Assembly (NCBI RefSeq): GCF_005849285.1
Contig: NZ_CP040517.1
Coordinates: 2,858,501-2,922,500, forward strand
DNA from: Luteithermobacter gelatinilyticus
Lineage (GTDB): Bacteria; Pseudomonadota; Alphaproteobacteria; Sphingomonadales; Emcibacteraceae
DNA length: 64,000 bases
Reading direction: 5' to 3'
The first letter of the stretch is position 1. Every line of letters starts with the position of its first letter. The notes below the pieces were generated by a model. It was not told the DNA's origin. It saw nothing but the letters and a program-made list of their open reading frames with translations, and did not search any database. The translations under genes and the position numbers were made by a program. Below, piece by piece: positions 40,004 through 45,247 of the stretch.

Positions 40004-41389
40004 TCAGCGCCGTTGAAGTTTGTCGATATAATATCCCTGGAACATGTGAATGCCGATTTCCTGGCCGAAATGAACGGCTTGCTCGCTATCACAATGGCAG
40101 AAAATCAACCGCATTTTGCCATGCAGCTTCAGGGCCTCGATCACCTTGAGCCGTTCAACATCCTGCACCATGGCCGGATACGCCTTGGACCAGCGAATTT
40201 TCAGAAAATCCACATTCAGCAGCTTCCGGTCCAGAACACAAACCGATTGCAGGTCCATGGCGTCAATGGACATCTTGCAGCCCTGCGCAGCCAATTTCCT
40301 CTGCGCCTCGTAATAGGCGCCGATGTCGGAAAGCACATCAAACAGTTTCATTTCCAGAATCAGCGGCTGGGAAGAAACCTGTTTATACTCCTGAATAAAG
40401 CTGTCAAAGGACGGGGACAGAACGGTGTCCACATTGATGTTGATGCTTTTAACAGTAGTAAAATCCCTAATCTGACTGATCAGCGCCTGTTGCAACTTGA
40501 TATCAAAGGTGCGGGTCAACCGCTGAAACAGCCATTTGTCCGCATGCAGGTCATATCCTGGCAGAATGGTGTTTTTGATTTCGTCTACGGAAATGAAAAT
40601 TTCCGTAAAAACCGGTTGCGGCGGGGCATTCCCCACAATGACGCAGGCATCCTGACGGCCGATCAGACGGCTGATGTCCATATTCTGCAAGCCGCGCTCC
40701 AGCTTGTCCAGCTCCAAGGGGCCCATGGGCGGCACCTCCGGTTGCCGCAGAAGCGGGTTATATAATGGGCGGGTCGTGGCGGTTTTCCTGTCTTTCCCGG
40801 CCAAGGAAGCGCCCCCCTCAACGGTTTTCTGAGGCATAGCATGGGCGTTGACCTTCTTATCCAGCTTCTCCACCAGTTTCTTAAGGCTCGGCAACGCGCC
40901 CCCGGCCGGTTTCGGCGCGTCAGATTCCTCCGCGTTAGGAGAGCTGCCTTCTTCGCTCTTCAGGGTTTCCACCTTGCCTAGAAAGGCGGTAAAATCCTTT
41001 TCCAGATCATACCAGTCACATAATTCCTCGTCCCGGCCGGCATCCAGATATTGTTGTAATACCGGCGACTCCTTGACCGCCCGGCGGGCTTCCAGCACGG
41101 CCCGATCCAAAGCCGTCACACTGGCGTTTTTGCAGACAAAAAACAGATCAAAATTACCGAGCCAGAACAGGCGGCCATCATTTTTGTGGACCAAACTATT
41201 AAAGGCCGTGGCGATTTTCCGGCGGTGAACGGGTTGTTTGTGCAGGCGGTCCAGCAGCGAAAAATGCAAATGCAGCGCCCGAAAGCCTTTGGGGTGACGG
41301 CGCAAGGATCGGGCATAGCTGTACAGATCGTCAACCTGAGACGGCGGGGCCGAGCTTTCCGCGTATAGAGACCTTTTTTCAGATTGCAT
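40004..41389 (-). CDS. Degenerate GGDEF/EAL-like cytosolic protein
   Basis: 461 aa with no membrane segment. Residues about 225-458 follow the EAL fold (ININVDTVLSPSFDSF, QPLILEMKLFDVL, FLKIRW, ending in IHMFQGYYID), but the catalytic motifs are missing: no EAL triplet, and DDFG is replaced by SIDAMD. Residues about 30-110 look like a worn GGDEF-like domain (GNFDLFFV at 77-84 in the position of the signature). A charged, proline-rich linker (150-220) joins them. It should not make or degrade c-di-GMP but could bind it, like the cytoplasmic part of LapD. It lies 98 bp downstream of a LapG-like protease gene on the same strand. Confidence 0.7.
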   Translation of the reverse strand: MQSEKRSLYAESSAPPSQVDDLYSYARSLRRHPKGFRALHLHFSLLDRLHKQPVHRRKIATAFNSLVHKNDGRLFWLGNFDLFFVCKNASVTALDRAVLEARRAVKESPVLQQYLDAGRDEELCDWYDLEKDFTAFLGKVETLKSEEGSSPNAEESDAPKPAGGALPSLKKLVEKLDKKVNAHAMPQKTVEGGASLAGKDRKTATTRPLYNPLLRQPEVPPMGPLELDKLERGLQNMDISRLIGRQDACVIVGNAPPQPVFTEIFISVDEIKNTILPGYDLHADKWLFQRLTRTFDIKLQQALISQIRDFTTVKSININVDTVLSPSFDSFIQEYKQVSSQPLILEMKLFDVLSDIGAYYEAQRKLAAQGCKMSIDAMDLQSVCVLDRKLLNVDFLKIRWSKAYPAMVQDVERLKVIEALKLHGKMRLIFCHCDSEQAVHFGQEIGIHMFQGYYIDKLQRR

Positions 41390-41487
41390 GCCTGAACGCT
41401 ATCCGAGCTTCGCTGATGAGTGTATCTTTTTGCCGTATCATGCCCAATATCATATCGGGGCAATGGTTAAAATTTAGTATTAATTTT

Positions 41488-42198
41488 TTACATCTTGTGC
41501 AGCCACCAGGCCGTTTCGTTGATGGAATAAAATGGCCGGTAATGGACCACCGCCTGAGCGCGCACCACGTAGGGGATCTGGTTATCCAGAACCCAGGCGG
41601 TCTTGCCCTCATATACCACTAGCACCGCATGCGCCACATCCAGATTGGTATCCTGGACCACCACAATCCGCATATTTTCCGGCGGGATGCCCAGCTCCTT
41701 CAGAGAATAATATTTGGCAATGGCGTAATCCTCGCAATCCCCGTCCTTGGTGAAAAACTGCCTTAAAGTGGCCCAATAGTCCTTGACCCCCCAGTTGACA
41801 ATGTCGGTGATATAGGGGGCCCGGTTCATATAACGGTTCACCTCATCCAGCTGCGTGGCGAAATCCTGCCCCTTAAGTGCTGCGATCAAATCCTTCCACT
41901 CATCCACCGGACACCGGAAATTGGCCGTAACCCGACAGGGCCCTTTGCGCCGGGCGCCAGGGCGGGTTTCTTCAGCATGTCGTTCGACCATGCTGTTCCA
42001 TTTCTTGAAGGCGGATAGCTGGGTGCTGCGCACCTCCCGGGACCCAAACAGCCCCGTCTCTTGGGCCACGGCGCGGGAACTGCCGGAACCGACCAGAACA
42101 AGACCCAGTGCCACAACAAAACACGGAATCACAACCCGGGAAATCATCACCAGAAAACGACGGAAACAATATCCAGAAGACATCACCCCCAAAGACAT
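41488..42198 (-). CDS. Periplasmic transglutaminase-like cysteine protease (LapG/BTLCP family)
   Basis: 236 aa from ATG 42198, after GGGGAGGGG. Signal peptide or anchor at about 18-46 (VVIPCFVVALGLVLVGSGSS). The catalytic triad is complete: C155 in DGDCEDYA, H190 in DVAHAVL, D205 in WVLDNQ, and the DGDCED stretch also carries the acidic residues used for calcium in LapG. LapG of Pseudomonas cleaves a large surface adhesin and is held back by the c-di-GMP receptor LapD. Here a degenerate EAL-like gene follows on the same strand, and a membrane protein with a degenerate HD-GYP domain is divergent. The adhesin substrate is not in the window. Confidence 0.85.
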   Translation of the reverse strand: MSLGVMSSGYCFRRFLVMISRVVIPCFVVALGLVLVGSGSSRAVAQETGLFGSREVRSTQLSAFKKWNSMVERHAEETRPGARRKGPCRVTANFRCPVDEWKDLIAALKGQDFATQLDEVNRYMNRAPYITDIVNWGVKDYWATLRQFFTKDGDCEDYAIAKYYSLKELGIPPENMRIVVVQDTNLDVAHAVLVVYEGKTAWVLDNQIPYVVRAQAVVHYRPFYSINETAWWLHKM

Positions 42199-42556
42199 CT
42201 GGCGGCCCCTCCCCCAACCTGTTCCGGCTCCTGAGGCCGGGGGCAAAGGGCTTGTCCATCCCGACCGAGACTCCCCCCTCCCATTATCAATGCAGATCCC
42301 CACCTGATTTCTAAACATCAACAGGTCCTAATAAAAAACTTTATTTATTAATAACTTGCAACACTATAATATCATGGACGATAATCAGTAAATATCTTCC
42401 GAGCGGACCGGGAACCTTTTTTAAACTTCTTATGAGTATGATATTGATTATAGGCAGAGGATGGTTACCGCTTTCTTAATTTTCAGAAAGCGCACCGTGT
42501 TAAAGGACCAATAAGCTTTTAAAAAAACACAAACAGGTCTCAGAGGGCTGGATATA

Positions 42557-44767
42557 ATGGCGGACTTTTCCCCCTGGAAAATCAGAAGCGCAGGCGCCGT
42601 AATTGCCGTGCTGGTCCTGGCAGCGGCGGTAGCCGCCATGATCTTTGCGCTCAAACTCGCAGACGCGGAAAAGACCCGGGATGAAATCACCTGGCAACAG
42701 CAGATGTCGGTGATCGTGGCCGGCCGGGAAGCCGCCATTGAAGACTGGCTGGAAGAACAGACCACGGCGCTGTCGCGACTGGCGGATAACGCGGCCTTAC
42801 GCATTTATCTTGCCCATGTGATTGAAGACAACGCCCCGACAGGTGAGAAGAACGAAGAGGCGCTGGCGCAAATGGTCTATCTGGAAAATCAGCTTCTCGC
42901 CCACGCCCAGCGTTACGGATACGCCCCTTCCCGCCCGGAAGGCATCGCCGACATCGGGGCCAGTCTCGATACCGTGCCCACGGCGGGGCTGGCGCTGACC
43001 ACCCCTGAAGGGCAGCTTTTGGTTTCCACGCCGGCCATGCCCCCGGTAACCCGCCCCATTGCCGCGTATCTGGAAGCCGGGGCCGGCAGCGATCCCATAA
43101 TATACGGCCCCTATCCGGGGGCCACCGGCGCCCCCCAGATTGCCTTTGTCACGCCGGTGTTCGGGGTTCAAGAGGATGAAACCGGCCTGGCTCTAGGGGT
43201 ATTGGTGGGCATCAAGATTTTGGACCAGTCATTCTACAAGAAACTGCACCAACCCGGCGACATGGCACGCACGGCAAAAAGTTACCTGATCCGTCGCAAC
43301 AACGGGATTATTGAATATCTTTCGCCAATCGAAAGAAGCAATGGCGACCGACACGCCCCACTGACCCTGCTGATGGACGAAAATACCCCGTCTTTGATCG
43401 CGGCCGAGGTCAGTAAAAATCCGGGAAGTTTTGTCCAGGGGCTGGATTATGACGGCAGGAAAGTCATGGCCACCGGCCGGCACATTCAGGGCACGGACTG
43501 GACCCTGGTGCGCAGCGTTGAAGCAAAGGAAATCCTCGGCCAGGTGGAAGAACGCCGGCGCAACATCATCTGGATTTCCGGTCTGATTATTGTGACGGTG
43601 GCGGTATTGTTGCTGTTGATCTGGCGGCATGGTGTATCCGTCCGGGTCAGCGAAGCGGCCAAACGCCAACGCGCCCTGACAGCTAAATTTGAAAAGCTGA
43701 GCCATTTTATGGAAGTGGTCACCGACAGCCAGCCCACGTCGATCACGGCAGTGGATGAAAACGGTCAGTACACATTCGCCAACCGGCAAGCGGAAAAGGA
43801 GCTGGGGCTGATGCGCAATGACATTGTGGGGCAGCCGGTGAAGAAAATCCTGGATCCGGCCCTGGCCCGCGAAACCCTTTCTCATGTGCAAGAAGTTCTG
43901 GATGAAGGCCAACCCGTTTCCCGCCTTGAGACCCAGGAAGAAAACCGGACGACGGTCAAGGCCGATTATCTGCCGTTGATGGTGGGACCGGAAAAAGGAG
44001 TGTTGATCGTGCGGGAAGATATTTCCCTGCTGGTGCGCGAACGGGAACGACGGGAACAGGCATTGAAAAACCTGGTGCAGACCCTGACCATGATCATTGA
44101 CCGGCGCGATCCTTACAGCGCCAGGCATTCCACCCGGGTCAGCCAGGTGGCCCGGACCCTGGCCCGGGAAATGGAATGTGACGAAATTACCGTGGAGACC
44201 GCAGAAATTGCCGGGGCGCTGATGAATCTGGGAAAGATTCTCGTGCCGCGGGAAGTGCTGACACGACCGGGGGAACTATCTTCGGAAGAGCTGATCACAG
44301 TACGCGAAAGCATTCAGAAAAGCGCCGATATGCTGGAAGGGCTGGAATTTGAGGGGCCGGTGGTTGAAACCCTGCGCCAAATCCGGGCCCACTGGGACGG
44401 CAGCGGCAGCCCTGCCGGCCTTAGCGGTGAAGACATCCTGCTGCCGGCCCGAATTATTGCCGTGGCCAATGCCTTTGTGGCCATGGTCAGCGCCCGGGCC
44501 CATCGGCCGGGCCTGGACATGGAAGAGGCCGCCATGATTCTAATGAATGATGCGGACAGAATTTATGACCGGCGGCCGGTGGCCGCACTGCTGAATTATC
44601 TTGAAAACAAAGGCGGGCTTGAGGCCTGGAAAAGTTTTGGCCAGCCTCCCGAATCGCCTGCTTCGGCGCCCCATGCCCAAGAAAAACGGCAGAAGGCTGA
44701 AGAACAGGGCATAGAAAATACCTCCCCCGCACCCAAAGGGCCCGGAAAGGATCCCGAAACCGGGTAA
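42557..44767 (+). CDS. Membrane receptor: periplasmic sensor, PAS and degenerate HD-GYP domain
   Basis: 736 aa. Membrane helices at 12-33 and 337-356 bracket a 300-residue periplasmic Cache-like sensor. A PAS domain follows (about 385-490) and then an HD-GYP-like domain (505-680). H524 of RHSTRVSQVA is kept, but the HD pair is replaced by M556-N557 (ALMNLGKI), GYP reads GSP (617-619), and the later metal-ligand positions are also changed (VANAFVAM for the usual VAD). Phosphodiesterase activity is therefore unlikely; a sensory or c-di-GMP-binding role is more plausible. The C-terminal 60 residues are disordered (A/P/E/K rich). Divergent from the LapG-like gene across 358 bp, which hold only AT-rich promoter DNA. 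Confidence 0.8.
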   Translation: MADFSPWKIRSAGAVIAVLVLAAAVAAMIFALKLADAEKTRDEITWQQQMSVIVAGREAAIEDWLEEQTTALSRLADNAALRIYLAHVIEDNAPTGEKNEEALAQMVYLENQLLAHAQRYGYAPSRPEGIADIGASLDTVPTAGLALTTPEGQLLVSTPAMPPVTRPIAAYLEAGAGSDPIIYGPYPGATGAPQIAFVTPVFGVQEDETGLALGVLVGIKILDQSFYKKLHQPGDMARTAKSYLIRRNNGIIEYLSPIERSNGDRHAPLTLLMDENTPSLIAAEVSKNPGSFVQGLDYDGRKVMATGRHIQGTDWTLVRSVEAKEILGQVEERRRNIIWISGLIIVTVAVLLLLIWRHGVSVRVSEAAKRQRALTAKFEKLSHFMEVVTDSQPTSITAVDENGQYTFANRQAEKELGLMRNDIVGQPVKKILDPALARETLSHVQEVLDEGQPVSRLETQEENRTTVKADYLPLMVGPEKGVLIVREDISLLVRERERREQALKNLVQTLTMIIDRRDPYSARHSTRVSQVARTLAREMECDEITVETAEIAGALMNLGKILVPREVLTRPGELSSEELITVRESIQKSADMLEGLEFEGPVVETLRQIRAHWDGSGSPAGLSGEDILLPARIIAVANAFVAMVSARAHRPGLDMEEAAMILMNDADRIYDRRPVAALLNYLENKGGLEAWKSFGQPPESPASAPHAQEKRQKAEEQGIENTSPAPKGPGKDPETG

Positions 44768-44806: not shown

Positions 44807-45247
44807 TCAGGCTTCTGCCTTGGCCAGATCCTGATGTGCTAGCACCGACAGACGCTCCACCAGCCGGCGCCCGACATCACCGCCGCTGCCGGTGATATTA
44901 TCCCGCAGAATCAGGTCCAGCGCCCGAATATGTGCCGTGATCAGCCCCGGATGGGCTTTTGTTTCGGCTGTTTTGACACGCCGCAGATACGCGCATAAAA
45001 GGCGCCCCACATCAGTCATCAGGGGATAGTTAAAACTGCCGCCCAACCCCTTGATGTTATGGGAAAGATCATAAATCTTGTCCAAAGTGAGCTGATCCGG
45101 CACCTTTGCAGTGCCGTCAAATGGGGCCATCAGTGTCCACATATCCTGCACCTGAGTCCGGGTCCAGTCCAGATAGCTCTCGGCAAGCTGATCAATGGCC
45201 ATCGCGGCCTGAACAACAGGATCAGTGTCCTCCCCGGATGTGGTCAT
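44807..45247 (-). CDS. Hpt-domain protein
   Basis: 146 aa, helical. IYDLSHNIKGLGGSFNYPL holds the Hpt signature with the phosphorylatable histidine at about residue 63. It lacks kinase and receiver domains. It converges on the degenerate HD-GYP gene with a 39-bp gap. This is the second orphan Hpt protein in the window (the other is at 4576). Partner unknown. Confidence 0.75.
   Translation of the reverse strand: MTTSGEDTDPVVQAAMAIDQLAESYLDWTRTQVQDMWTLMAPFDGTAKVPDQLTLDKIYDLSHNIKGLGGSFNYPLMTDVGRLLCAYLRRVKTAETKAHPGLITAHIRALDLILRDNITGSGGDVGRRLVERLSVLAHQDLAKAEA

Follow-up and report, generated by a model that had tools for sequence, protein, structure and literature searches.

Divergent protease and receptor genes

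A 64,000-nucleotide stretch of the Luteithermobacter gelatinilyticus genome (contig NZ_CP040517.1, positions 2,858,501 to 2,922,500), hereafter the window, encodes a LapG-like periplasmic cysteine protease and, divergently from it, a membrane receptor with a degenerate HD-GYP domain (Table 1). A third gene, for a soluble protein with degenerate GGDEF and EAL domains, follows the protease gene. An original prediction, made from the sequence alone, had proposed that the soluble protein and the receptor share the role of LapD, the receptor for cyclic dimeric GMP (c-di-GMP) in Pseudomonas, in controlling the protease, and all three open reading frames are present where it placed them. The genome is a single contig of 3.15 Mb, to which our whole-genome searches refer. 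For comparison we used a set of 60 relatives; the nearest named ones are Emcibacter, metagenome-assembled genomes (MAGs) of Emcibacteraceae and one genome labelled Kordiimonas.

Table 1. Features of the protease-receptor locus and of two candidate substrate loci elsewhere in the genome
Feature	Coordinates	Strand	Basis
Soluble protein with degenerate GGDEF and EAL domains, encoded on the same strand as the protease and downstream of it	40004..41389	-	EAL E 5e-11, model fold
LapG/DvhG-like periplasmic cysteine protease (BTLCP, Peptidase_C93)	41488..42198	-	PF06035, LapG structures, invariant triad and GDCED
Spacer between the divergent protease and receptor genes; presumed site of both promoters	42199..42556		Gene coordinates
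DvhD-type receptor: periplasmic dCache, transmembrane segment, PAS, degenerate HD-GYP	42557..44767	+	Pfam, PDB matches, AlphaFold2 model
HPt-domain-like gene, convergent with the receptor	44807..45247	-	Hpt E 8.7e-4, below cut-off
Two RTX-bearing giant proteins, each by a LapB-like transporter (outside the window)	G000:C1:1019502-1033040; C1:2179161-2188100

The protease is assigned by its sequence to the BTLCP/LapG-type peptidases. It matches the Peptidase_C93/BTLCP family (PF06035, E 2.6e-19) and the LapG model (E 4.3e-30, 105 bits, short of the equivalog cut-off of 320), and its closest solved structures in a PDB sequence search are those of LapG (4fgo, 4u65). The complete C155/H190/D205 triad that had been read from the sequence is invariant, together with the calcium motif GDCED, across both sets of relatives compared, of 17 and of 29 sequences; the cysteine pair C88 and C96 is also invariant in the wider set. 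Judged by eye, the N-terminus looks like a hydrophobic export signal. No other BTLCP gene was found in the genome.

The receptor consists of a periplasmic dCache domain, a transmembrane segment, a PAS domain and an HD-GYP domain, as judged from Pfam, an AlphaFold2 model and structural comparison. PAS and HD_5 were above the Pfam cut-off, and dCache_1 was below it but clear by structural comparison. The periplasmic sensor and the loss of the HD pair and the GYP motif were correctly anticipated: the HD motif is replaced by M556-N557 (M556 in 35/35 sequences, N557 in 34/35) and GYP by GSP, and the late metal-ligand aspartate is Asn638 in all 35 sequences.

The closest known relative of this receptor is DvhD of Desulfovibrio vulgaris Hildenborough (DVU1020), a published c-di-GMP receptor that controls the LapG-like protease DvhG (DVU1019) and for which structures 9rc0, 9rbz and 9rc2 are available (PMC13090378, 2026). 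DvhD was the best PDB sequence match (9rc0, E 9.3e-39; 9rbz, E 8e-33), with active HD-GYP proteins trailing at 1e-19 or weaker, about twenty orders of magnitude behind 9rc0. A profile of the receptor family separated DvhD (8e-67) from the next match (3e-34) by a still wider distance. All three receptor domains have DvhD-like folds. In the model, built from 35 sequences (predicted local distance difference test score, pLDDT, 85.9) and compared with the PDB, the HD-GYP domain matched 9rbz (Z 26.5), the PAS/HD-GYP region 9rc0 (Z 25.3) and the periplasmic domain 9rc2 (Z 19.3), each as the top match for its domain; other crystal-structure dCache domains reached Z 17.1 at most. The expectation that no Lap-type system with a degenerate HD-GYP receptor had been described was therefore wrong, since DvhD/DvhG is such a system (PMC13090378). 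Our literature search, which hardly reached subscription journals, found nothing on an alphaproteobacterial counterpart beyond that 2026 paper.

DvhD has been shown experimentally to bind c-di-GMP without hydrolysing it, and carries SQ at the HD position (PMC13090378). We compared the twelve DvhD positions reported as c-di-GMP contacts or as sites mutated for it. The window receptor has the same residue at six, R647 and R650 being invariant, and a conservative change at two (Lys to Arg, Glu to Asp); of the other four, one Tyr is His and three differ. The window receptor resembles DvhD in its domain order, in the lost metal ligands and in most c-di-GMP residues, that is, in all features we could compare except the incompletely conserved nucleotide contacts. 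By analogy with DvhD, it is likely to bind c-di-GMP.

The receptor is not LapD. The locus resembles LapD/LapG of Pseudomonas fluorescens in having a LapG-like protease and in the expected restraint of that protease by a c-di-GMP receptor (PMC3032545, PMC4359373). However, LapD joins a LapD_MoxY domain to HAMP-GGDEF-EAL in one membrane protein, whereas the window receptor is built of dCache, PAS and HD_5, and at this locus a GGDEF-EAL module is found only in a separate soluble neighbour. A search of the genome for the canonical LapD N-terminal domain gave no match, a result of little weight because its control matched nowhere.

Linkage of the receptor to the protease

The pairing of the two genes is conserved. 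Among the 60 relatives, the receptor was matched in 34 and a BTLCP in 40; a BTLCP was present in 34/34 genomes with the receptor compared to 6/26 of the others (p 5e-11, a value that overstates independence because the genomes are kin). We inspected 80 named receptor loci, 19 from an Emcibacter-like group and 61 from outside it. A BTLCP gene lay nearby in 65 of the 80, almost always adjacent and divergent, and in 46 of the 61 outside the group; the divergent arrangement is kept in most linked loci. Other neighbours from the window recurred in at most two of those 61 loci, except a generic histidine kinase (5) and the EAL gene (9). Of 289 alphaproteobacterial genomes drawn evenly, 43 had the receptor, and a BTLCP gene lay within about 1.5 kb in 24 of the 29 receptor loci inspected besides the window's own. 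This linkage, which the original prediction had proposed to check by a gene-neighbourhood survey, is far beyond chance.

HD_5 and dCache are common domains, and one might suppose that an ordinary HD-GYP phosphodiesterase or sensor stands beside the protease by coincidence. We consider this highly improbable, given that the metal ligands are gone in 35/35 relatives, that the linkage survives changed flanks, and that every receptor genome among the 60 relatives has a BTLCP. As had been predicted, the adjoining protease is very probably governed by a membrane receptor with a degenerate HD-GYP domain, acting in the place of LapD.

Some loci depart from this pattern. The receptors at L114, L115, L118 and L123 lie in stretches free of BTLCP genes for more than 9 kb on either side, with flanks common to the group and, in L114, L115 and L123, a molybdopterin-oxidoreductase-like gene upstream; these homologues are possibly DvhD-like receptors with a different output. 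At locus L078 the EAL and protease genes are adjacent and the receptor is absent from the site that it occupies in relatives. This looks like a true loss, because the genome (G004) is one contig, and would provide a natural experiment on a protease without its guard. A locus titled Mesoflavibacter, of the Bacteroidota (L150, CP051228.1), has an alphaproteobacterial-looking receptor-protease pair and is probably from a mislabelled MAG.

The soluble GGDEF-EAL protein and other neighbours

The description of the third gene product as a worn cytosolic GGDEF/EAL-like protein was borne out. Its AlphaFold2 model (pLDDT 82.3) is a GGDEF-EAL tandem, with modules of PA0861 and Vibrio cholerae LapD as top structural matches and other GGDEF-EAL tandems close behind. 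The second Asp of DDFG and the Glu of AEGVE are lost in 26/26 sequences, in all of which Lys397 and Gln451 are invariant. Lacking a complete set of EAL catalytic residues and metal ligands, the protein is predicted to be catalytically degraded.

The proposal that LapD is jointly replaced by this protein and the HD-GYP receptor, neither being dispensable, draws on its LapD-like tandem fold and on its gene's position directly after the protease in 17/19 Emcibacter-like loci and near it in nine of the 61 others, where the flanks differ; the gene also co-occurs with BTLCP (p 4e-4). However, the remaining 52 loci outside the group show no EAL gene nearby, the receptor has its own c-di-GMP module, and DvhD functions without such a protein in Desulfovibrio (PMC13090378). 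In addition, the EAL gene is present without a detected BTLCP in 10/60 relatives. For two of the MAGs (G007, G009) the absence may be an assembly gap, because the contig ends beside the EAL gene, but several relatives keep the gene in an intact neighbourhood with neither protease nor receptor. An obligate division of the LapD role is therefore unsupported, and we regard it as unlikely. The description that fits the EAL protein best is that of a neighbour, accessory or independent, which would either tune the switch or have its own task. Only slightly less doubtful is a rewired version of DvhD/DvhG in the window's order, in which the protease answers to both the HD-GYP receptor and the soluble GGDEF-EAL protein and has a substrate other than a retained adhesin of LapA type.

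The intact EAL blocks contain HPt-like and CwlJ-like genes, or have an apparent RegA/RegB pair nearby (recognised by eye). In sister families (L220, L226, L227, L229) the EAL gene lies near an apparent RegA/RegB redox pair and genes for an SCO1-like and a CxxCxxCC protein, a setting that occurs both with and without the protease-receptor pair. The EAL protein may have its own role in these families.

In many relatives within the order (L075-L094) the HPt-like gene (motif HNIKGLGGSFNYP) and the receptor gene converge, whereas the HPt-like gene adjoins the receptor in 0/61 loci outside the group; in Sneathiella (L130) a response-regulator gene occupies its position. The HPt-like protein is a possible phosphorelay partner.

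A probable c-di-GMP-gated protease switch and its possible substrates

We consider it probable that the pair forms a Dvh-type switch in which the receptor controls the LapG/DvhG-like protease in response to c-di-GMP. Reasoning from DvhD/DvhG and LapD/LapG, from which c-di-GMP binding, protease inhibition and the direction of control are all drawn, a receptor dimer would bind c-di-GMP through its non-catalytic HD-GYP domains, and a change in the PAS-HD-GYP stalk would be relayed across the membrane, so that the dCache domain on the periplasmic side restrains the protease. When c-di-GMP falls, the protease would be freed to cleave some exported protein within a periplasmic segment.

Several observations weigh against this interpretation. 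The c-di-GMP residues R569, K582 and Y621 of DvhD are not conserved in the window receptor. The periplasmic domain is only 14% identical to that of DvhD; the likeness is structural, and sequence comparison of the dCache domain with DvhD gave no match. The lead of DvhD over other dCache domains in the model comparison is modest, and because that lead lies within a common fold the periplasmic match supports the assignment rather than decides it. Some receptors, the four at L114, L115, L118 and L123 among others, have no BTLCP nearby. Finally, a model search of the window genome, including its two giant proteins, found no LapA-type retention module.

The window locus also differs from its Desulfovibrio counterpart. 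Both systems have a receptor gene adjoining a BTLCP protease gene with the triad and calcium motif, but the window genes are divergent whereas those for DvhD and DvhG share one operon, and the window protease has an apparent signal peptide where DvhG has a long membrane-anchored N-terminus. Open reading frame and Pfam scans of the window found no type I secretion or adhesin gene adjoining the pair, and the extra degenerate GGDEF-EAL gene is likewise unlike the Desulfovibrio arrangement. The genes at this locus do not amount to a complete Lap/Dvh operon.

Candidate substrates are encoded elsewhere in the genome. Two loci with LapB-like transporters encode giant proteins, a 4,513-residue RTX protein and a 2,979-residue tandem-95/VCBS protein, the latter with tandem-95 repeats that are almost identical to one another and with a long N-terminus that looks disordered. 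This list comes from searches for RTX and type I secretion genes and may be incomplete. For the adhesin sought by the original prediction the picture is mixed. Giants linked to type I secretion exist, yet a LapA-type retention module could be recognised in neither of them, and a search near their N-termini for a [T/A/P]AAG site, which covered part of the longer protein, gave none.

In several relatives, adhesion genes stand beside the pair itself. The Sneathiella chinensis pair (L130) lies near genes for a TolC-like protein, HlyD and an ABC transporter carrying a C39-like domain, and near a further BTLCP and a further DvhD-like receptor; apart from the missing adhesin, this is the composition of the Desulfovibrio dvh operon. 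The additional copies lie in a type I secretion cluster (L130:52-2941), which makes two paralogous switches in one genome. At L152 the receptor is convergent with an adhesin-like open frame of 5,954 residues, a length established from an overlapping stretch of the same contig that is identical over 10,077 bases; its N-terminal part scores as a retention/FecR-like domain (E 1.2e-7, below the model cut-off). Giant repeat proteins also adjoin the pair in L121, L146, L161, L162 and L164. The presence of giant and type I secretion genes beside the pair indicates that, in these relatives, the module accompanies Lap/Dvh-type adhesion genes.

Alternatively, the same switch could act on an envelope protein other than a LapA-type retained adhesin. 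One precedent is HvyA, a BTLCP of Caulobacter crescentus that restrains capsulation and is suspected to cut another envelope protein (PMC4241560). HvyA and the window protease are both alphaproteobacterial periplasmic BTLCPs with a C/H/D triad; unlike the window protease, HvyA belongs to a capsule export locus and is subject to cell-cycle restriction (PMC4241560). The distribution of the retention model points the same way, with no match in the window genome and one weak match over the 60 relatives, compared to matches in 16/16 genomes sampled from other lineages. However, all but one of those 16 genomes had sub-cut-off matches only, many of them FecR-like, and a divergent retention domain in the two giants could escape the model. 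The adhesin context in linked relatives also argues against a different kind of substrate, which we hold to be a plausible but less favoured possibility. We know of no DvhD-type receptor linked to HvyA. FecR-domain adhesins were considered for the window's order, and the matches listed were all in frames of about 270-420 residues, the size of FecR sensors. In the window organism the protease may act on an adhesin of divergent sequence or on some other envelope protein.

It has been suggested that DvhD could have arisen from an HD-GYP phosphodiesterase and taken the place of LapD in sulfate reducers (PMC13090378). Because a DvhD-like receptor occurs in 43/289 alphaproteobacterial genomes, usually paired with a BTLCP, the HD-GYP-type Lap system is not a speciality of sulfate reducers, and its origin becomes testable through phylogeny. 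Judged by gene content, the DvhD/DvhG design appears to be widespread in Alphaproteobacteria. A function is thereby suggested for many HD-GYP and BTLCP genes that so far lack a name, and Sneathiella and L152 provide genomes in which secretion or adhesin genes lie beside the switch.

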